Source of the DNA: a virus
Direction: 5' to 3' (one strand)
Length of the DNA stretch: 53,830 bases
IMG/VR virus record: IMGVR_UViG_3300029265_000685
Coordinates: 1-53,830 of that record
A program made the translations under genes and the position numbers. How positions within the stretch are numbered: position 1 is the stretch's first letter; each line of letters starts with the position of its first letter. The notes under the pieces are model-generated. The model saw nothing but the letters and a program-made list of their open reading frames with translations, made no database searches and was not told the DNA's origin. Below are positions 21,428-35,316 of the stretch, piece by piece.

Positions 21428-21718
21428 ATGACCAAAACAGAACAAAAAAGACAAAATACTGAAAAAGTAATTAACTTCCTAGAAAATAAATTTGATGCTT
21501 TTAATATTGAAGATAATGATGGTGGTAGGATGGGTTTTTCAATTGATGATCTTGAGGGAGAATTCCATAGAAGGGATTATGAGGTGATAATGTTGGATAA
21601 TATAAATTTAGCGGGAGAAGGTTGGACAAAAGAAGAATTAAACAAAAGAGATCGTGCGATTGAGATGGAGAAGTTACTCAATGAATCTATTCAAAACTTA
21701 CTTAAATTAGAAATATGA
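21428..21718 (+). CDS. hypothetical protein
   Basis: 96 residues, highly charged, soluble, predicted mostly helical, with a Gly/Asp-rich stretch near residues 25-40. No family recognised. It is the first gene after P6 and its last four bases (ATGA) contain the start codon of the esterase-like gene, so the two are translated together. Confidence 0.55.
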   Translation: MTKTEQKRQNTEKVINFLENKFDAFNIEDNDGGRMGFSIDDLEGEFHRRDYEVIMLDNINLAGEGWTKEELNKRDRAIEMEKLLNESIQNLLKLEI

Positions 21719-22197
21719 AGAAAAAAGTAATTTATTTTCATGGTCTTGAAAGTAATCAAGGTGGAGAGAAAGTAGAATATTTAGCCAATAGGTGCTATAT
21801 TCACGCTCCAAGTATGGATTATACGAGAGAGGATATATTTCCATTCCTCACCCAAATGGTAGAAGATTTCCAACCCGACTTAATCATTGGTTCTAGTATG
21901 GGTGGTTACACAGCTTATATATTAGGCGCCCTTTACAACATACCAATAATTGCATTCAATCCAGCACTACATAGCAGACCTTTCAACCCAAATTATCCAA
22001 AATTTGTAAATAAACATATAGCCAATAATGCTAGGATAATTTTAGGTGAAGAAGATACTATTATAAAACCATCATCAACCTTAGAATGGTTAAAAGATCA
22101 TATAGTGGATACTCATCCCAAAATAACAATTGAAAAAGTTAATGAGATGGGGCATAGAGTACCACTTGACATATTCATAAATAAAATACAAATGTAA
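21715..22197 (+). CDS. YqiA-like alpha/beta hydrolase (esterase family)
   Basis: 160 residues. It begins KKKVIYFHGLESN (the oxyanion strand with HG), has the nucleophile elbow GSSMGG near residues 62-67, an acidic residue in LGEEDTII near 111-117 and a His in GHRVPLD near the C-terminus. This is a complete Ser-Asp-His hydrolase set in the UPF0227/YqiA layout. The substrate is unknown. It overlaps the previous gene by four bases and precedes the preQ0 block, which has its own promoter. A phage esterase could act on host surface acyl groups or small metabolites; no evidence decides. Confidence 0.75.
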   Translation: MKKKVIYFHGLESNQGGEKVEYLANRCYIHAPSMDYTREDIFPFLTQMVEDFQPDLIIGSSMGGYTAYILGALYNIPIIAFNPALHSRPFNPNYPKFVNKHIANNARIILGEEDTIIKPSSTLEWLKDHIVDTHPKITIEKVNEMGHRVPLDIFINKIQM

Positions 22198-22286: not shown

Positions 22287-22550
22287 ATGTTAAAAGAATT
22301 AAAGGATAAAATCCACCAATTACAAGAATCAGAAAATTTTAATTTCACCTACCAAGGTATAGGATATATTCTAAGTTGCTATGGTGTAGGTCCCACGGGG
22401 GAGAAATATGTTGCCGTACATAAAACGAACAAATGGGGCAGATCAATGAATATTGATAAAATTACAGATAATTATATTATACTATATGATTTTAATATGA
22501 TGGATGTAAAATCAACTTATAAAATGAGTATTAAAAAAATAATATTATGA
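22287..22550 (+). CDS. hypothetical protein at the head of the preQ0 block
   Basis: 87 residues with a Lys-rich N-terminal helix followed by strands. It contains a short Gly/Tyr-rich turn, YGVGPTGEKY. No family recognised. Its stop overlaps the ATG of the DpdA-like gene (ATGA), suggesting coupled translation and a shared process. A role with DNA modification is guilt by association only. Confidence 0.55.
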   Translation: MLKELKDKIHQLQESENFNFTYQGIGYILSCYGVGPTGEKYVAVHKTNKWGRSMNIDKITDNYIILYDFNMMDVKSTYKMSIKKIIL

Positions 22551-23344
22551 TAAAATATTCACATGAAGTACCTTTATGTTTACTAGAAGATAGTAGAAAA
22601 TTTAATACTTATGACTACTGCTTACCCCATCTATTAGATGAGAATCAGGATTATTTAGAATTTTTTAGAAAATCAAAGAAAGATGGACGTTATATCATAA
22701 TGGATAATTCACTCCATGAATTAGGTAAAGCCTATGATTCTTATCGTTTATTACATTGGATCAACGAATTAAAACCAAATGAATTCATCATCCCTGATGT
22801 TTGGGAAGATATGGAAGGTTCAATTAAAAATGCTAAAACTTGGTTGAATTATAAACTACCCGAAGGTGTTGAAAAAGTAGTAGTTGTTCAAGCAACAACA
22901 CTCCATGAAGCATTTGAGTGTACTAAAATATATAAAGAGTTAGGTTACAAAAAAATCTGTTATTCTTATGGTGCCTCATATTACAATGACATAATCCCAC
23001 ACCCCAATAAAGATTTAGGTAAGGCATTAGGTCGCTTATTTGTAATTTCAATATTATATAATCAAGGTGTATTAACTGAAAATGATAGAATTCATTTGTT
23101 AGGTTGTGCAGTTCCTCAAGAATTTGGATGGTATGAAGATATTAAATGTATTGAATCTATAGATACTTCAAACCCCGTAATGGCTACTTTAGAAAATGTT
23201 AAATATACAGATGCAGGTTTAACTAAAAAACCAAAAGCAAATATGAATGATCACTTTGACATGATGTATGATGAGGTAGATTACGATTTATTAGATTACA
23301 ACTTAGAAAAATTTAAAACAATTAATAATTTAAAAACCAAATAG
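22547..23344 (+). CDS. dpdA: TGT-superfamily protein, candidate DNA 7-deazaguanine transglycosylase (DpdA-like)
   Basis: 265 residues. The order of motifs follows the TGT TIM barrel: IMDNSLHELG near residue 50 (where TGT has DSGGxQ), IIPDVWED near 83-90, VVVVQAT near 107, YSYGAS near 140, and HLLGCAVPQEF followed by IDTSNPV near 185-210, paralleling the TGT LMGVGxP...D segment with the nucleophilic Asp. In phages, DpdA exchanges guanine in DNA for a 7-deazaguanine base. FolE, QueD, QueE and QueC lie nearby, so the substrate is probably preQ0. It is shorter than bacterial TGT and lacks its C-terminal zinc-binding Cys cluster. Assignment is by pattern and context; a deviating TIM-barrel enzyme is the alternative. 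Confidence 0.72.
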   Translation: MIKYSHEVPLCLLEDSRKFNTYDYCLPHLLDENQDYLEFFRKSKKDGRYIIMDNSLHELGKAYDSYRLLHWINELKPNEFIIPDVWEDMEGSIKNAKTWLNYKLPEGVEKVVVVQATTLHEAFECTKIYKELGYKKICYSYGASYYNDIIPHPNKDLGKALGRLFVISILYNQGVLTENDRIHLLGCAVPQEFGWYEDIKCIESIDTSNPVMATLENVKYTDAGLTKKPKANMNDHFDMMYDEVDYDLLDYNLEKFKTINNLKTK

Positions 23345-23836: not shown

Positions 23837-24685
23837 ATGCAGATGAAATTAGATTTCGAACAAGAAAAACACGTAGTAGTATCACTCTCAGGTGGTATGG
23901 ATAGCTCAACATTATTACTTAGATGTTTAAAAGAATATGACACAGTAACTGCAATATCTTTTGATTATGGTCAAAAACATAGAGTTGAGTTAGAAAGAGC
24001 TCAATCGTTAATTGATTATCTAGAAGAAAATGGACATAAAGTAAACTATAAACAAATTAAATTAGATGGTTTATCAAGCTTATTGGACTCAGCGTTAGTT
24101 GAAGGTGGTAAAGAAGTTCCTGAAGGACATTATGCGGATGATAATATGAAAGCTACAGTTGTCCCTAATAGAAATAAAATATTTGCTTCAATTGTCCAAG
24201 CGGTAGCTTTATCCGTTGCTAATAAATCAGGAGAAACTTGTAATATCGCTTTAGGTATCCATGCTGGAGATCATCAAATTTATAAAGATTGTAGGCAAGA
24301 ATTTCGTGATGCTGACGATGCTGCTTTTAGAGAAGGTAACTGGGATGCTGAACGTGTGGGTTATTTTACTCCTTATCTTCTTGGGGATAAATATGATATT
24401 CTCCAAGATGGGGTAGCGCTATGCGAATACTTATGTATAGCATTTGACGACGTATATGCTCGTACTATCACATCATACAAACCTATATTTAATAAAGAAA
24501 CATTCGAATGGTATGCAGATTACAAATCAGCATCAAGTGTTGAACGTATTGAAGCATTTATAAAACTGGGTAGACCTGATCCTTCACAATACGCAGATGA
24601 GTCAGGTACTGTAAGTTGGGAAGTAGCGGTAGACCATGTAACTAAAGTATTAGTATTAAAAGCAGTAGTAGAACAATTAAAATAA
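23837..24685 (+). CDS. queC: 7-cyano-7-deazaguanine synthase QueC
   Basis: 282 residues. The PP-loop ATP-binding motif SGGMDSS lies at 18-24, followed by FDYGQKHRVEL and VVPNRNK, standard for QueC. The enzyme converts 7-carboxy-7-deazaguanine and ammonia to preQ0 using ATP. The C-terminal zinc cysteines of bacterial QueC are absent: where the Cys cluster is expected the protein reads YKSASSVERIEAF, so only the flanking SS-ERIEAF/DP landmarks remain. It belongs to the same transcript as queD and queE. Confidence 0.9.
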   Translation: MQMKLDFEQEKHVVVSLSGGMDSSTLLLRCLKEYDTVTAISFDYGQKHRVELERAQSLIDYLEENGHKVNYKQIKLDGLSSLLDSALVEGGKEVPEGHYADDNMKATVVPNRNKIFASIVQAVALSVANKSGETCNIALGIHAGDHQIYKDCRQEFRDADDAAFREGNWDAERVGYFTPYLLGDKYDILQDGVALCEYLCIAFDDVYARTITSYKPIFNKETFEWYADYKSASSVERIEAFIKLGRPDPSQYADESGTVSWEVAVDHVTKVLVLKAVVEQLK

Positions 24686-24970: not shown

Positions 24971-25222
24971 ATGAATAAATTAATTTACATATCGAGTACA
25001 TGGTGTCAACCCTGTAAAACATTCTCACCCATAATGGATAAAGTATCATCCTCAGGTATTCCAGTACAAAAATTAGACGCTGATAAAGATCAGAATGCTT
25101 TAATGCAGTATGGTGTGAGGAGTATCCCAACAGTAGTTAAAGTAGATGCAAATGGGAATATGGTCGATAAATTTACAGGAGTAAAACAATTTCAAGAAAT
25201 AATTAATTTTTATAATAATTAA
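24971..25222 (+). CDS. thioredoxin-like protein
   Basis: 83 residues with active-site WCQPC at 11-15, a DADKD segment and the cis-proline loop SIPT near residue 51. This is a compact thioredoxin fold, shorter than host thioredoxin (about 105), closer to NrdH/glutaredoxin size. It can supply electrons to ribonucleotide reductase. The adjacent genes are for preQ0, so it could alternatively support a redox step there. Confidence 0.88.
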   Translation: MNKLIYISSTWCQPCKTFSPIMDKVSSSGIPVQKLDADKDQNALMQYGVRSIPTVVKVDANGNMVDKFTGVKQFQEIINFYNN

Positions 25223-25223
25223 A

Positions 25224-25688
25224 ATGGGAAAATTTCAATCGAGTAAAGTATTTGACGGATTCTCAACAGTATTTCGTCAGTGGAAAGCAGAAGATACTCA
25301 TTGTAGGTTTCTACATGGTTATGGTATATCTTTTAAAGTATATTTTGAAGGTGAATTAGATGATAGAAATTGGGTTTGGGATTTTGGAGGCATGAAAAGA
25401 GCTAAGACATTAATTGATGGTAAACAACCTAAAGAGTGGATGGATTTTATGTTTGATCATACTCTCATTGTAGCTGAAGATGATCCTGGAATGGGTGGTT
25501 GGAATACGATGAATGATTTAGGTGTAATCCAACTAAGAATTATTGAAGCTACTGGTGCCGAAAAATTCGCTGAATTTATTTTTAACAAATTAAATCCATT
25601 CGTACTAGAAGAAACTGATGGTAGGGTTAGAGTTACTAAAGTTAAATTCATGGAACACGGAAAAAATGCTGCATATTACGGTGAATAA
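25224..25688 (+). CDS. queD: 6-carboxy-tetrahydropterin synthase QueD
   Basis: 154 residues of the 6-pyruvoyl/6-carboxy-tetrahydropterin synthase fold: FSTVFRQW near 13-20, Cys27 and His31 in CRFLHGYG, WDFGGMK near 52-58, and FDHTLI near 77-82. It converts dihydroneopterin triphosphate to carboxy-tetrahydropterin, step two of the preQ0 route. The usual second His of HGH is Tyr33 and the His of FSxxH is Phe17, so zinc ligation differs from E. coli QueD; related variants exist in many bacteria, as I recall. It starts one base after the thioredoxin stop. Confidence 0.85.
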   Translation: MGKFQSSKVFDGFSTVFRQWKAEDTHCRFLHGYGISFKVYFEGELDDRNWVWDFGGMKRAKTLIDGKQPKEWMDFMFDHTLIVAEDDPGMGGWNTMNDLGVIQLRIIEATGAEKFAEFIFNKLNPFVLEETDGRVRVTKVKFMEHGKNAAYYGE

Positions 25689-25708: not shown

Positions 25709-26491
25709 ATGGAAAAGTTAAAAAGGGTAGAAGATTACGATAAAACTTTACCCATTGTAGAGATTTATACAGCTGTACAATCAGAGGGAAGCCGAGCTGG
25801 TTATCCAACAGTGGTAATTAGAACTACAGGGTGTACCCACAGGTGTCATTTTGGTGAAGGAGGTTGGTGTGATTCCTTTTATACCTCAATTCACCCCGAA
25901 AAAGGCACATTTAGTTTTAATGACATAATTGAAGCATATAAGAAAAATCCTCATATAAAAGAGATGATGTTAACTGGAGGTTCTCCAACTATGCATCCAG
26001 CTTTAGTAAATGAATTAACACATTTTGCTCATGAAAACGATATTTTCATTACTATTGAAACTGAAGGCTCGCATTTTCTACGCACTGATTATCCGATTAA
26101 TTTATTATCGATTTCTCCTAAATTCTCGAATTCAATCCCTGCTGTTGGGGTAAAAACACCCCAAGGTGGAATCACTGATGAGAGAATGATAAATAAACAT
26201 AATAAGCTTAGGCTTAATTATGGAGCAATAAAACGATCTATTGAATATCACTTAGACTACCACATAAAACCAGTATGGGATGGTAAAGATGAGGGTGCAT
26301 TAGCTGAGATTATAGAATGTATTTCTATATTAGACGTTCCTCAAGATAAAGTATGGTTTATGCCCGCTGGGGATTCAAGAGAATCATTATTTAAATCATA
26401 CCCTCTAGTATTTGATTGGGTTAGAGATAATGGTTATAGAATGACTTGGCGCCCACATATTATAGCCTTTGAAGACGCGAGAGAGGTATGA
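25709..26491 (+). CDS. queE: 7-carboxy-7-deazaguanine synthase QueE (radical SAM)
   Basis: 260 residues. QSEGSRAG at 24-31 and the SAM cluster cysteines 42, 46 and 54 (CTHRCHFGEGGWCD) are followed by LTGGSPT near 89-95 and ETEGS near 113. QueE rearranges carboxy-tetrahydropterin into the 7-deazaguanine ring, using a 4Fe-4S cluster and SAM. The cysteine spacing is CX3CX7C, with five residues inserted relative to the common CX3CX2C; other QueE subfamilies also have inserts here. It is the third enzyme of the pathway encoded in this window. Confidence 0.9.
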   Translation: MEKLKRVEDYDKTLPIVEIYTAVQSEGSRAGYPTVVIRTTGCTHRCHFGEGGWCDSFYTSIHPEKGTFSFNDIIEAYKKNPHIKEMMLTGGSPTMHPALVNELTHFAHENDIFITIETEGSHFLRTDYPINLLSISPKFSNSIPAVGVKTPQGGITDERMINKHNKLRLNYGAIKRSIEYHLDYHIKPVWDGKDEGALAEIIECISILDVPQDKVWFMPAGDSRESLFKSYPLVFDWVRDNGYRMTWRPHIIAFEDAREV

Positions 26492-26516: not shown

Positions 26517-26693
26517 ATGGAAAACGTAGCAAAAGAAATAGTTGCAGGTATTAATAAAACAACTAATGATTATGATGCCGCCGAAGAAGTAGATAGGATA
26601 TTAAAGAAATATTTAGTTAAGAGAAAATCCCAAAAATATGAAAGAACTAATAAATCAGAAATCAATAGAAATTCAAACCAAGATAATAGCTAA
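26517..26693 (+). CDS. 58-residue hypothetical protein overlapping the phosphoribosyltransferase gene
   Basis: A short frame encoding 58 residues, hydrophilic and charged, starting MENVAKEIVAGINKTTNDYD. Its last 56 bases overlap the start of the phosphoribosyltransferase gene in another frame. The first 38 residues look like a designed helix and the overlapped C-terminal part is Asn/Ser/Arg-rich, as expected of an overprinted tail. No family recognised. The leader AATAAATAATTATG matches other starts. Confidence 0.5.
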   Translation: MENVAKEIVAGINKTTNDYDAAEEVDRILKKYLVKRKSQKYERTNKSEINRNSNQDNS

Positions 26694-27141
26694 TCAAATT
26701 ACAGCGAAACATAAGGATGATAAAACATCTATTGTTATGGTTGGTTTACTTAATGGTTGTTTTGCGTTTTACAGCGATTTAGTTCGAGCTATGCCAATTG
26801 ATGTGGAATGTGATTTTATGCGCGTTAAATCGTATATAAATCGCAAACAAGGTGATATAAAAATCACTAAAGACTTAGAGACACCTATCAAAGGTAAGCA
26901 TGTTTACATCGTAGATGATATCTACGATACAGGTAATACAATGAAAGCCGTAATTGAATATTTAGAAGTTAAAAACCCATCATCAATATCGATAGCAACT
27001 TTAATTACAAGAGAAACTAGTCCTATTCCTACCCAACCCTTATTTAATGCTTTTACTATTAAAGATGAATGGGTGATCGGATTTGGAATGAATAATGATA
27101 AAGGATATTGCAGAAATTTACCTTCAATTTGGGCTCTGTAA
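26638..27141 (+). CDS. hypoxanthine/guanine phosphoribosyltransferase-like protein
   Basis: 167 residues of type I PRTase fold. The PRPP-binding motif VYIVDDIYDTGNTM lies at about 88-101, preceded by GLLNGCFAFYSDL near residues 36-48 and a Lys-containing strand DVECDFMRVKSY. The C-terminal EWVIGFGMNNDKGYCRNL matches HPRT proteins. It salvages a purine base to its nucleotide using PRPP. Its place between queE and folE suggests purine or deazapurine handling. Substrate specificity cannot be read from sequence. Confidence 0.78.
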   Translation: MKELINQKSIEIQTKIIANQITAKHKDDKTSIVMVGLLNGCFAFYSDLVRAMPIDVECDFMRVKSYINRKQGDIKITKDLETPIKGKHVYIVDDIYDTGNTMKAVIEYLEVKNPSSISIATLITRETSPIPTQPLFNAFTIKDEWVIGFGMNNDKGYCRNLPSIWAL

Positions 27142-27181: not shown

Positions 27182-27877
27182 ATGGAAAATAAACGTAGAA
27201 AAATCCACGAGGAGTTAGAAGTGGTGCAAACAGGTTTTGCTAATGGGGTTGCTGAGGGTTTTCCTCTAAGTGATGATGCAAAACAAGAAATGATTAATGA
27301 AGCAACTATCGCTTATGGTAAATTTTTAGATGCACTAAAGTGTGATTGGAGGAATGATCCAAATTCTATGGAAACACCAAAAAGAGTTTCAAAAGCTTAT
27401 GTAAATGATTTATGGTCAGGTAGATATACAGCAATGTCTCCAATAACTTCATTCCCATCTGATGGTTATGATGGTATTATTATTGAACGTAATATACCTT
27501 TAACTAGTATGTGTAGTCACCACCACCAAACAATTAGTGGTGTAGTTCATATTGGATACATTGCCGGAGAAGAAGGTCAAGTAATTGGTTTATCTAAATT
27601 GAATAGGATTGTAGAATTATTTGGTAGAAGAGGAGCAATACAAGAACAATTAACATCAGCTATCCATGGAGCTACAGATAAAATTACTGAAGATAATTTA
27701 GGTGTAATTGTAACAATTGTAGCAGGTCATTCATGTGTAAGTTGTAGAGGTGTTAAACATTCGGGTGCTTCAATGGTTACAACAAAAGCCTCAGGAGTAT
27801 TTAGAGAAAATGGTAATAATGCTCGTAAGGAGTTTTTTGACAGTTTAAAAATTAATAACGGAGGACATCAAATATAA
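27182..27877 (+). CDS. folE: GTP cyclohydrolase I FolE
   Basis: 231 residues. The zinc-binding MCSHHHQT (Cys111, His113/114) and HSCVSCRG (Cys185) are in FolE-I order, with GLSKLNRIVELFGRR between. It converts GTP to dihydroneopterin triphosphate, the first step of the preQ0 (and folate) route. It completes the four-enzyme set with queD, queE and queC, although it is transcribed from its own promoter P8. A pseudogene is unlikely because all ligands are present. Confidence 0.93.
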   Translation: MENKRRKIHEELEVVQTGFANGVAEGFPLSDDAKQEMINEATIAYGKFLDALKCDWRNDPNSMETPKRVSKAYVNDLWSGRYTAMSPITSFPSDGYDGIIIERNIPLTSMCSHHHQTISGVVHIGYIAGEEGQVIGLSKLNRIVELFGRRGAIQEQLTSAIHGATDKITEDNLGVIVTIVAGHSCVSCRGVKHSGASMVTTKASGVFRENGNNARKEFFDSLKINNGGHQI

Positions 27878-27891
27878 AATAAATAATAGTT

Positions 27892-28407
27892 ATGGAGAAA
27901 AATAAAAGTAATGTACAATTTATTGATGAAGTTGAGGAGTTTAATGCTACTATGGGTAAGCCAAATAACTACTCTCCTACAATTCCCGAAAAAAAAGAAT
28001 GGCAATTTGTTTATGATTTTGTTCTCGAAGAACTCGAAGAGTATAAAGCAGCCTGTGAGGCAGGTGATATTGTTGAGGTTCTTGATGCTTTATGTGACAT
28101 TGCCTACGTTTCATTTGGTAACGGCTCTATGTTACATGGTCTTAAGGATAAAATACGGCCAGCATATCAAGAAGTACAAGCGTCGAATATGTCAAAGGCT
28201 TGTATTAACGAAGAAGATGCACAAGCGACCGTTGAAAGACGTTCCGCTGAGCAAAAGACACCATGTCACTATGAGAAGGTTGGAGAATATTTTATTGTCT
28301 ATAGAACGTCGGATCGTAAAGTGATGAAAAACATTAATTATTTTAGACCAGATTTGAAACAATTTTTTACTGAAGATGAGATAAAGAATGCATCTTTAAA
28401 AGATTAA
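27892..28407 (+). CDS. MazG/PRA-PH-like nucleoside pyrophosphohydrolase
   Basis: 171 residues. EELEEYKAACEAGDIVEVLD followed by ALCDIAYVSFG near residues 43-75 gives the ExxE...D metal-binding arrangement of MazG and phosphoribosyl-ATP pyrophosphohydrolase folds. The C-terminal part is charged and unrecognised. Such phage enzymes hydrolyse unwanted nucleoside triphosphates or control (p)ppGpp-like signals. It lies between folE and the polymerase, so control of modified or normal dNTPs is plausible. Confidence 0.72.
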   Translation: MEKNKSNVQFIDEVEEFNATMGKPNNYSPTIPEKKEWQFVYDFVLEELEEYKAACEAGDIVEVLDALCDIAYVSFGNGSMLHGLKDKIRPAYQEVQASNMSKACINEEDAQATVERRSAEQKTPCHYEKVGEYFIVYRTSDRKVMKNINYFRPDLKQFFTEDEIKNASLKD

Positions 28408-28425: not shown

Positions 28426-30108
28426 ATGAGTTTCAAGAAATGTTTTGCTAAAAGATTAGGGGGGAATGATTATCTCATACACCTATGGACTGATGAGGGT
28501 GGTTATGAGAAGGTAGAATGGACTAACCAAGCCTATACTGAATGTGGGGAAGCTGATGCTTCCCACCTTGGTTTGAATGGTGAACCTTTACGTAAAGTTA
28601 GAAATTGGAATAGAGAAGATCCAAAACTCCACTTCCATGATATGACCCCATATCAAAAATTCCTAGTTGAAAAATATGGAGTTAATGATGAACCATCTAC
28701 AACTCAAAGGGAAATATTTTTCGATATTGAGATTGAAATGGGGGGAGCTCTTACCGAAGAATATATAAAATCAGCACCTAAGAAGGTTACATCAATTGCT
28801 TGGTATGATAAACAAGTTGATTTGTGGGGCATCTTAATATTAGATGCTAAGGATAATTTAAAACATACAAAAACTAAAAATCGGGAAATAATCCCATGTC
28901 GTACTGAAGATGAACTATTAATGAAGTTTATTGAGAAGTTTAGAGAAATGGATCCTGACATAATTGTAGGATGGAATAGTGATTATTTTGATATTCCCTA
29001 TTTATATTATAGAATGTGTAATGTTTTAGGACAAGATATTGCCCGTTATTTATCCCCAATTGGTTATGTTAGAGAAACTCCTTGGTATAAGGATCAATTC
29101 ATACAAATAGCAGGTGTAGAATCACTTGATTATATGCGTTTACATAAGAAATTTAGTTGGGCGGATGAACCATCATTTAAGTTAGATGCTATTGGTGAAA
29201 AATATGCTGGGTTAAATAAAATTGAATACGATGGAAATTTAGATGATTTATTTGAAGAAGATCCATTAAAATTTATTCAATACAACTTTAGAGATGTTGA
29301 AATACTTAAAGTATTAGATGAAAAGTTAGAATATTTATCCCTAGTTAAAAATTTAGCACATAAAGGTAAACATAATTATAGTGAGGTTTATGCTAATACC
29401 AAAACACAAGATGGCGCTATTTCAGCTTATCTATTGAGTAAAGGTATTGTTCCACCTGCTAAAGAACGCAACCCATTATCTAAGAAAAACTATGCTGGTG
29501 GATATTTATTTTGCCCTAAAGCAGGTATTTACAATTATATGTTTGATGAAGATTTAACTTCACTATACCCTTCAATTATTATGACTATTAATATTGGTAA
29601 GGAAACAATGATTGGGAGAATAATTGATGCTGATGATAGAAATAATCGTTTAGGATTAAATGATTTAAAAAAGAGAGATCCTGAGGAAGAATTAATGGTT
29701 GAAAATGCCAAACGTAGACGTACTAAAGTACCAGTATCTAAACTGGTTAGGATGATTGAAGAAAATAAACTCTCAGTCTCGGCAAATGGTGTTTTATTTT
29801 CAACAGATAATGAATCAGTATTAAGTACTATTCTAAAAAAATGGTTTGATGAACGTGTTTTATATAAAAATAAAATGAAAGAAGCATATCAAGCTGGTAA
29901 TAATGAATTAGGTGCAAGTTTTCATATGAAACAATATACGATGAAAATTTTACTTAACAGTTTATATGGAGCTACAGCATTAGGTAGTTTTAGATATGGT
30001 AATGTAATACTATCAGAAGCAATTACATTGTCAGGTCAAAGAATCATTCAAGAATCAGCTTTAACAGCAAATAGACACATGAATAAAGTAATTCGCAAAC
30101 AAATATAA
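28426..30108 (+). CDS. gp43A: family B DNA polymerase, N-terminal part (gp43A): exonuclease, motif A and motif B
   Basis: 560 residues. The exonuclease motifs are FDIEIEMGG near 98-106, IVGWNSDYFDIPYL near 181-194 and YNFRDVEILKVL near 287-298. Polymerase motif A is DEDLTSLYPS near 373-382 and motif B is KILLNSLYGA near 506-516. It ends after the motif B helix; motif C, DTD, is in the next gene. This is the T4 gp43 order, cut in the palm. The stop is two bases before the gp43B ATG. Both halves would have to assemble for activity. Confidence 0.92.
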   Translation: MSFKKCFAKRLGGNDYLIHLWTDEGGYEKVEWTNQAYTECGEADASHLGLNGEPLRKVRNWNREDPKLHFHDMTPYQKFLVEKYGVNDEPSTTQREIFFDIEIEMGGALTEEYIKSAPKKVTSIAWYDKQVDLWGILILDAKDNLKHTKTKNREIIPCRTEDELLMKFIEKFREMDPDIIVGWNSDYFDIPYLYYRMCNVLGQDIARYLSPIGYVRETPWYKDQFIQIAGVESLDYMRLHKKFSWADEPSFKLDAIGEKYAGLNKIEYDGNLDDLFEEDPLKFIQYNFRDVEILKVLDEKLEYLSLVKNLAHKGKHNYSEVYANTKTQDGAISAYLLSKGIVPPAKERNPLSKKNYAGGYLFCPKAGIYNYMFDEDLTSLYPSIIMTINIGKETMIGRIIDADDRNNRLGLNDLKKRDPEEELMVENAKRRRTKVPVSKLVRMIEENKLSVSANGVLFSTDNESVLSTILKKWFDERVLYKNKMKEAYQAGNNELGASFHMKQYTMKILLNSLYGATALGSFRYGNVILSEAITLSGQRIIQESALTANRHMNKVIRKQI

Positions 30109-30110
30109 CT

Positions 30111-31043
30111 ATGAAACATTTACAAGACGTACCATGGTGGATATGTGATCCCGAAGATATTAATTATGTAGCATACTCAGATACGGATTCTATCTATATC
30201 CATGCCGAACCATTACTTAAATTTCTATATCCTGACTTTGATGATATGCCTAGTGAGAAGAAAGATGATTTATTAGAAGAAGAAGCAATAAAATATCAAC
30301 ATATTATAACAGATTCATATAGTGATTTAGCTAGGGATTGTTTTAATGCTAAGGGAGAACATAGACTAGAAATGAAAACAGAATGTGTTATCAGATCAGC
30401 ATATTTTAGAGCTACTAGGCGTTATGCCCAATGGATTACTAAACAAGAAGGTATGACAAAGGAATCACTTGACGTTAAAGGACTAGAGTTTAAAAAAGCA
30501 AATTTCCCACCAGTGTTAGGTAAATTTTTTCATAAAATCCTCATTGATGTGTTAAAAGGCACAACACAACCAGAGATTGATGCTCGTGTCAAAGCATTTA
30601 GACAGCAAATATTAGACGGCACTATACCGCTAACTGAGTTAGGAAATCCCACATCAGTGAAAACATTAAATAAGTATACTGAACGTAAGGCACGTGCTGG
30701 GGAAATGATGACTACTGTTGCTAAAGGTGCACCAGCTGCTGTAAGAGCAGTTATTAGACATAATGATTTACTAAGATTTTGGGGGTTAAATGGTAAACAT
30801 AGTACTATTACTCAAGGTGATAAGGTTAAGTGGATTTATTTAAAATCAAACCCATATCACATTGATGCCGTTGCCTTTTTAGACTATGATATTGCAGATA
30901 AGGTTCGTACATTCATCGAAGAATATGCCGACCGTAGGAAAATTTTTGAATCAATATTACTTAATAAAGTCGAGGGGTTTTATGGAGATTTACAATGGTC
31001 ACTTAACCTCAACCCATATCGCGAAATGTTTTTTAACTTATAA
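30111..31043 (+). CDS. gp43B: family B DNA polymerase, C-terminal part (gp43B): motif C and thumb
   Basis: 310 residues. Motif C YSDTDSIYI lies at about 22-30, supplying the second pair of catalytic Asp residues. The rest matches the palm end and thumb: KTECVIRSAYFRATRRYAQW and GLEFKKANFPP, ending SLNLNPYREMFF with a hydrophobic tail that could bind the clamp. It begins two bases after the gp43A stop in a different frame (offset +2). Known T4-like relatives of Aeromonas have split gp43 with an endonuclease gene between the parts; here there is none. The frame before 30111 is open only to 30087, so true separation is favoured. Confidence 0.9.
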   Translation: MKHLQDVPWWICDPEDINYVAYSDTDSIYIHAEPLLKFLYPDFDDMPSEKKDDLLEEEAIKYQHIITDSYSDLARDCFNAKGEHRLEMKTECVIRSAYFRATRRYAQWITKQEGMTKESLDVKGLEFKKANFPPVLGKFFHKILIDVLKGTTQPEIDARVKAFRQQILDGTIPLTELGNPTSVKTLNKYTERKARAGEMMTTVAKGAPAAVRAVIRHNDLLRFWGLNGKHSTITQGDKVKWIYLKSNPYHIDAVAFLDYDIADKVRTFIEEYADRRKIFESILLNKVEGFYGDLQWSLNLNPYREMFFNL

Positions 31044-32180: not shown

Positions 32181-32474
32181 ATGAAATTAAAAGCAATGTT
32201 CGATGCGGTTATCGTAAAAGCGTTAAAAGAAGAGGAAACGATGTATGGAAACATAATTGTTCCTGATTTGGGTAAAGATAAAAATGAACATGGTGAGGTA
32301 GTATCAGTAGGACCTGGTAAATACTCAGTTACAGGAGATCATTTTTTAAAAACCCAAATTAAAATCGGTGATGTAGTAGTTTTACCAACAATGGGATTTA
32401 CAAAATTAGAACATGATGGTGAGGAATATTTCGTAGGGCCAGAACAGCAAATACTTGCACAAATAGAAAAATAA
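32181..32474 (+). CDS. groES: co-chaperonin GroES
   Basis: 97 residues. The mobile loop EEETMYGNIIVPD lies near residues 16-28, and VVSVGPGKYSVTG, KIGDVVVLP and EEYFVGPEQQILA match Cpn10. The ring caps GroEL during folding. It fills the role that gp31 has in T4 capsid assembly. It is followed by a groEL gene after 12 bases, so both subunits come from the phage. Length equals bacterial GroES. Confidence 0.93.
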   Translation: MKLKAMFDAVIVKALKEEETMYGNIIVPDLGKDKNEHGEVVSVGPGKYSVTGDHFLKTQIKIGDVVVLPTMGFTKLEHDGEEYFVGPEQQILAQIEK

Positions 32475-34082
<1,608 letters not shown>

Positions 34083-34401: not shown

Positions 34402-35316
34402 ATGATAAATAAAGAACACACACTTTTAGTTGAGAAATACCGTCCATCAACACTTGAAAATTATGTTGGTAATGAACATATTAAGAAAACTATATCACAA
34501 TATCTTACCCAAAATGACATCCAGAATTTTATATTCCAAGGACCAGCAGGTACAGGTAAAACTACATTGGCAAAAATTATTGTTAAAAATCTAGATTGTG
34601 AGTATATTTACATTAATGCTTCGGATGAAAGGGGAATAGAAACTATAAGAGACAAAGTATCAGGTTTTGCTAGCACAATGTCATTTAAACCTTTAAAGGT
34701 AATTATTTTAGATGAAGCTGATTTCTTAACTATCCAAGCGCAAGCATCATTACGTAATATTATCGAAACATTTTCAAAAACTACACGTTTTATTATGACG
34801 TGTAATTTTGTAGAGCGTATCATTGATCCATTACAATCACGTTGTCAAGTACTAAAAATAGTACCCCCAACAAAGAAGGATGTTGCTGAACACATTGCTT
34901 GGGTTTTAGGTGAAGAAAAAACTGAATTTGATTTAGGAGATATAGTAACAATTGTAAACCAATTCTATCCGGATTTACGTAAATGTCTGAATACAATTCA
35001 ATTATCAACACAAAATAATAAGCTTGTAATTGATAAAACCGTACTAGTATCATCTAATTATATGATTCAAGTAGTTAAAGAATTATCAAAATCAAAACCA
35101 AAGTGGAAGGAAATACGACAGATAGTAGCAAATTCAAACGTTCAGGATTACGAAGAAATGTATCGTTTCTTATTTGATAAAGCCTCTAGTTATGCCGAAG
35201 GTAATGAAGGTATGGTTGCAATCCATCTAAATGATTATAGCTACCAAGCAAATTTTAGAATCGATAAAGAAATAAATTTTATGGGTCTAATAGCAAAATT
35301 AATAGAATTAAAATAA
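34402..35316 (+). CDS. gp44: clamp loader large subunit gp44 (AAA+ ATPase)
   Basis: 304 residues. LLVEKYRPSTLENYVG near the N-terminus, Walker A GPAGTGKTT at about 47-55, Walker B ILDEADF near 100, and the SRC arginine-finger motif (QSRCQ) near 150 define an RFC/gp44 AAA+ ATPase. It opens the gp45 clamp and loads it on primed DNA with gp62. Walker B is LDEAD rather than DExx box variants, typical for this family. It is separated from gp62 by one small gene. Confidence 0.93.
   Translation: MINKEHTLLVEKYRPSTLENYVGNEHIKKTISQYLTQNDIQNFIFQGPAGTGKTTLAKIIVKNLDCEYIYINASDERGIETIRDKVSGFASTMSFKPLKVIILDEADFLTIQAQASLRNIIETFSKTTRFIMTCNFVERIIDPLQSRCQVLKIVPPTKKDVAEHIAWVLGEEKTEFDLGDIVTIVNQFYPDLRKCLNTIQLSTQNNKLVIDKTVLVSSNYMIQVVKELSKSKPKWKEIRQIVANSNVQDYEEMYRFLFDKASSYAEGNEGMVAIHLNDYSYQANFRIDKEINFMGLIAKLIELK

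Follow-up and report, generated by a model that had tools for sequence, protein, structure and literature searches.

A gene of the window, by which we mean the whole stretch of 53,830 bases analysed here and probably a fragment of a virus genome, very likely encodes a compact DpdA-type guanine transglycosylase that would act in phage DNA modification, on either of two substrate forms, polymeric DNA or the free nucleotide. This reading is drawn from the predicted fold, the conserved putative catalytic residues, the clade in which the protein falls and the gene neighbourhood. The identity of the protein is in itself ordinary; the adjacency of small kinase genes to its relatives is possibly a new observation, and one that bears on the substrate.

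The gene and its family

Every motif quoted in a sequence-only reading of this DNA is present in the translation of the 265-residue frame (Table 1). There is no open frame on the reverse strand opposite to it. The frame overlaps the upstream open reading frame (ORF) by 4 nt and the next one starts 2 nt after it, all three being on the + strand. Homologues of the protein, with 52-75% identity, are encoded in 18 IMG/VR loci and are also present in isolate phages, and the frame is therefore not a chance one. The isolate relatives include phages of Campylobacter, Flavobacterium, Cellulophaga, Chryseobacterium, Bacillus, Weizmannia, Vibrio and Aeromonas, and phages of Rhizobium and Brevundimonas were reached through more distant family members. 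More than 120 IMG/VR loci of this compact family have been found. In Rhizobium phage RHph_I1_18 the family member resides in an ORF of 422 codons (L154:6001-7269) whose annotation is DUF3310 protein, and which is possibly a fusion.

An alignment of 23 diverse members has revealed the invariant residues Y36, D53, N54, D84, R163, H183, L185, G186, D206 and N252, among them both putative catalytic aspartates, D53 and D206. In a single-sequence search of Pfam no TGT match is obtained for the window protein, and the one family reported, DUF6610 (PF20314), scores 15.2 bits, below the curated cut-off of 27. Weak matches to DUF6610 are seen in 15 of the 23 members, the best with an E-value of 2.3e-5. 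The window protein matches PHROG 19058 (E 1.2e-41), which carries no function annotation and to which the protein of Campylobacter phage CP220 is also assigned with 602 bits.

Table 1. Genes of the 7-deazaguanine cluster in the window and putative catalytic residues of the compact protein
Feature	Position	Strand	Basis
Probable compact DpdA-like (DpdA3-like) guanine transglycosylase, 265 aa	22547..23344	+	AlphaFold model, fold search, residue alignment, tree
Putative catalytic residues of the window protein: nucleophile D206, acid/base D53, DpdA-type His H183			
queC, 7-cyano-7-deazaguanine synthase; retains the PP-loop, lacks the zinc cysteines	23837..24685	+	Pfam QueC E 4.9e-35, motif check
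Thioredoxin gene inside the que cluster	24971..25222	+	Pfam E 2.5e-12; in 14/18 related loci
queD, 6-carboxytetrahydropterin synthase	25224..25688	+	Pfam PTPS, PHROG QueD
queE, 7-carboxy-7-deazaguanine synthase (radical SAM)	25709..26491	+	PHROG QueE-like E 1e-52
Phosphoribosyltransferase	26638..27141	+	Pfam Pribosyltran E 9.4e-24
folE, GTP cyclohydrolase I, which opens the 7-deazaguanine pathway	27182..27877	+	Pfam E 2e-40
MazG/PRA-PH-type nucleotide pyrophosphohydrolase	27892..28407	+	Pfam PRA-PH E 8.7e-10

Predicted fold and catalytic residues

The AlphaFold2 model of the window protein, built on an alignment of 57 sequences, has a pLDDT of 94.8 and a pTM of 0.91. When this predicted model was compared with the PDB by Foldseek, all 50 matches listed belonged to the TGT family, with the DpdA structure 7ui4 in the fourth place (E 6e-7). 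With VIA, the model aligns with archaeosine TGT at a Z-score of 17.4 and with DpdA at 17.0, over 233-234 residues. A TIM-barrel fold of TGT type is thus predicted for the window protein. A best match to a TIM barrel of another superfamily, which had been named beforehand as the outcome contrary to a DpdA-like protein, did not occur.

At the level of profiles, hhalign pairs the segment IHLLGCAVPQEF...IESIDTSNPV of the window protein with RYLMGVGKPEDL...IDMFDCVMPTR of TGT, so that D206 comes to lie opposite D264 of the E. coli enzyme. The earlier proposals that the motif order parallels that of TGT and that the Asp of IDTSNPV is the candidate nucleophile both agree with this pairing. In the corresponding alignment with the DpdA of phage 9g, D53 falls on D72, H183 on H196 and D206 on D215. 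With TGT and DpdA1, hhalign reaches a probability of only 17-18% (E about 0.0015), and it is mainly the common fold and the order of the motifs that speak for these residue alignments. The profile of the family matches the DpdA sequence of 7ui4 with an E-value of 2.3e-4, the alignment being on HLLG and SID; a search of this kind had been proposed from the sequence alone. The case for a transglycosylase rests on the predicted fold, the putative catalytic residues and the gene context, the single-sequence support being weak.

The zinc motif CxCxxC, which E. coli TGT has at residue 302, is absent from the window protein, as had been pointed out before. The absence is real but not distinctive, since the motif is found in none of 17 DpdA1 (median length 312 aa) and none of 11 DpdA2 sequences, and its loss is common to every phage DpdA examined. 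In a comparison of protein charge, made for the question of DNA binding, E. coli TGT is acidic too.

Placement among DpdA proteins

In a maximum-likelihood tree of the compact proteins, DpdA1 and DpdA2, a branch with support of 99/97 sets the compact proteins apart from both other groups, and the window clade joins the proteins of Flavobacterium phage immuto and CP220 at 95/94. The DpdA1 (9g-type) clade thus excludes the window protein, yet the counterpart of the DpdA1-type His196, named as a conserved residue of DpdA1 (PMC6884629), is the invariant H183. Membership in DpdA2 (nt-1 type, about 460 aa) was considered and rejected, as there is no significant hhalign match and the tree places DpdA2 in another clade.

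The suggestion that the protein may represent an unnamed DpdA subfamily does not hold, for the immuto homologue has already been deposited as DpdA and the window protein groups with CP220; it joins an already known compact group. We take the compact group with CP220 to be the DpdA3 of Cui et al. 2023, a name reportedly given there to the transglycosylase linked to complete replacement. The window protein is accordingly filed as DpdA3-like, which adds a member to the compact DpdA group, and it may have the associated trait of complete G replacement. The compact group now also comprises a clade in which most of the phages are metagenomic, and it gains a confident model and a set of conserved catalytic residues.

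The 7-deazaguanine gene cluster

FolE, QueD, QueE, QueC and the transglycosylase are all encoded in the window and constitute a phage preQ0 DNA-modification cluster, and que or folE genes are found near most of the relatives of the window protein. With these pathway genes adjacent and the fold matches being TGT and DpdA, the description of a compact DpdA-like protein of TGT fold is borne out.

The products of folE, queD, queE and queC, situated 0.5-4.5 kb downstream, would convert GTP into a 7-deazaguanine base, either preQ0 or the corresponding amide. The transglycosylase would then displace guanine from deoxyribose, D206 attacking C1' to form a covalent intermediate and D53 serving as acid/base during the attachment of 7-deazaguanine, and the modified base would render the phage DNA resistant to nucleases. 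We infer this reaction and its product; as in CP220, the replacement may be complete.

Guanine set free by the exchange could be salvaged by the phosphoribosyltransferase. A phosphoribosyltransferase gene is present in 3 compact-family isolates and in no DpdA1/DpdA2 isolate, a link with the compact family that is suggestive only. The MazG/PRA-PH-type gene is homologous to a gene near the immuto dpdA (phmmer E 7e-87) and possibly has a role in the nucleotide pool. Neither domain is a general companion of dpdA: MazG (PF03819) was detected in phiST only, among 23 isolates, and PRA-PH among the isolate genomes in immuto only, besides a weak match in CAjan.

The QueC of the window keeps the SGGxDS motif, and SYKP...DYKSASSVERIEAF replaces the zinc-cysteine pattern C(x)8CxxCxxC. 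Zinc-less QueC is also encoded in the window-clade and immuto-type loci in which full-length QueC was found; the zinc cysteines are kept in the QueCs of CP220, CC_R7, Youna2, 9g and nt-1.

Three small genes, those starting at 22287, 23347 and 23569, had been proposed to assist the dpdA-like gene. They recur in 1, 3 and 10, respectively, of the 18 window-clade loci, and the third is usually located just upstream of queC and not beside dpdA. A role of the three as dpdA cofactors is not supported, and was rejected for this poor recurrence. A promoter scan of the window gave 31 sites, fewer than the 41.8 found in shuffled sequences.

Some other genes of this region are also worth recording. A UPF0227/YqiA-like alpha/beta hydrolase is encoded just upstream of the dpdA group (21715-22197; Pfam E 2.5e-10). 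At 28426-31043 a DNA polymerase of family-B type is read in two neighbouring ORFs, of 560 and 310 aa, with a stop codon between them; either the polymerase is split or the sequence contains an error. Phage GroES and GroEL are encoded at 32181-34082, and in many immuto-type loci they also occur about 6 kb from dpdA.

Kinase genes and the substrate of the enzyme

A small P-loop kinase is encoded directly beside the transglycosylase gene in 9 of 12 compact-family isolates and in none of 11 DpdA1/DpdA2 genomes, a pattern that was noticed before it was tested and for which p = 0.03 when the genomes are collapsed to lineages. The adjacent kinases belong to AAA_28 in CP220 and CC_R7, to DNMK in D479 and Ahp1 and to AAA_18 in phiST and MA9V-3; that of BSTP8 is of an unclassified type, and the Youna2 kinase is homologous to it. 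The kinase gene lies upstream of the transglycosylase in some genomes and downstream in others. As several Pfam families and either side of the gene are involved, the link looks convergent. In immuto-type loci a kinase is encoded within 1.5 kb in 66 of 81 cases, and StAshley has a dNMP kinase gene about 6 kb from the transglycosylase. Kinase genes occur on both flanks of the transglycosylase in CP220, one of them fused to an HD domain; the fused protein, encoded just upstream (L020:8859-9890), has an AAA_33 kinase-like domain.

The selective adjacency in the compact group suggests that the base is exchanged on dGMP and that the product is then phosphorylated and polymerised. The window protein might then be an enzyme of the same class that swaps guanine for 7-deazaguanine on the free nucleotide, a possibility that we put forward with reserve. 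A dedicated small kinase would carry the product towards the triphosphate, enzymes of MazG or HD type would lower dGTP, and the polymerase would build a G-free genome, in parallel with the 2-aminoadenine (PurZ/MazZ/DatZ) pathway. The arrangement of genes around the compact transglycosylases resembles the gene set of the 2-aminoadenine phages. The double flanking in CP220, a phage with complete dG replacement, fits such a route, as do the MazG-like genes near the compact transglycosylase in immuto and phiST and the clamp and polymerase genes, instead of kinases, that adjoin the 9g-type DpdA1 genes.

Against it, an adjacent kinase is found in none of 19 window-clade loci and is missing from 23 of 28 D479-type loci, most of the metagenomic ones among them, and the order of observation and test and the lineage-collapsed p value given above also weigh on it. 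Moreover, phages in general often encode kinases close to their polymerase or reductase genes, and Cui et al. 2023 are said to argue for insertion after replication. In the window itself no adjacent kinase was detected by a P-loop scan, nor by searches for AAA_28 or DNMK; a weak AAA_33 match at 34531 lies inside the clamp-loader ORF and is not an adjacent kinase. Far from its dpdA gene, a 161-kb relative of the window encodes an AAA_28 kinase that has 25% identity to the immuto kinase across almost the entire length.

Polymeric DNA as the substrate of the window enzyme is given about an even chance. For the compact DpdA enzymes as a group, a role as mononucleotide base-exchangers, turning dGMP into 7-deaza-dGMP for a kinase and polymerase that yield a guanine-free genome, is conceivable though somewhat against the odds. 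If true, insertion after replication would no longer describe what happens in the compact group, which would supply an enzyme for making 7-deaza-dGTP, and DNA with 7-deazaguanine would have a route through the nucleotide pool comparable to the pathway for 2-aminoadenine. No report of a nucleotide-level route for 7-deazaguanine was found in the literature searched. The kinase adjacency bears on the question raised for the Campylobacter phages (PMC6884629), namely how every G can be replaced. In CP220 and CPt10 100% of dG is replaced by dADG (PMC8306585). Hutinet et al. 2019 still counted Campylobacter phages as being without DpdA, and named a modified dGTP or an undetected deoxyribosyltransferase as possibilities (PMC6884629).

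That the window enzyme acts on tRNA instead of phage DNA, and raises queuosine or a related modification in the host, is very unlikely. The closest folds of its model include tRNA TGTs, and boosting of Q was raised by Hutinet et al. for phages with que genes but without DpdA (PMC6884629); but the protein has neither the zinc site nor the C-terminal region of tRNA TGT, it possesses the DpdA-type His, and in the related phages CP220 and CPt10 it is the DNA that is modified. That it is an unrelated TIM-barrel enzyme merely resembling TGT, as the DUF6610 score below cut-off and the low hhalign probability might suggest, is hardly credible, given that the PDB fold matches listed are all TGT or DpdA, that the catalytic Asp and His align and that the que genes are adjacent.

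Comparison with known systems

The DpdA2 of Vibrio phage nt-1 is matched by fold in BFVD and adjoins que genes; it differs from the window protein in its length of 464 aa and its clade, and has no significant profile link to it. The bacterial TGTs (E. coli, Zymomonas) share with the compact guanine transglycosylase proposed here the TIM-barrel fold, the nucleophile and the motif order, but are about 100 residues longer and have the CxCxxC zinc site. The DpdA1 of Enterobacteria phage 9g, like the window protein, has no CxCxxC, and its D72, H196 and D215 match D53, H183 and D206; it is 317 aa long, belongs to another clade and adjoins clamp and polymerase genes with no kinase.

The DpdA of Flavobacterium phage immuto (QQO91982), deposited as a DNA guanine transglycosylase, is 37% identical to the window protein, and a MazG-like gene and a zinc-less QueC are common to the two. 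Immuto differs in having an extra QueF, a formyltransferase gene and the nearby AAA_28 kinase. The protein of CP220 (YP_009169190) is flanked by HD-AAA_33 and AAA_28 kinase genes, whereas the window has no adjacent kinase, and the CP220 QueC is of the zinc type in contrast to the zinc-less one of the window. It shares about 38% identity, equal length, the same catalytic residues and a supported clade with the window protein, and its phage, whose dG is fully replaced, encodes que genes as the window does.
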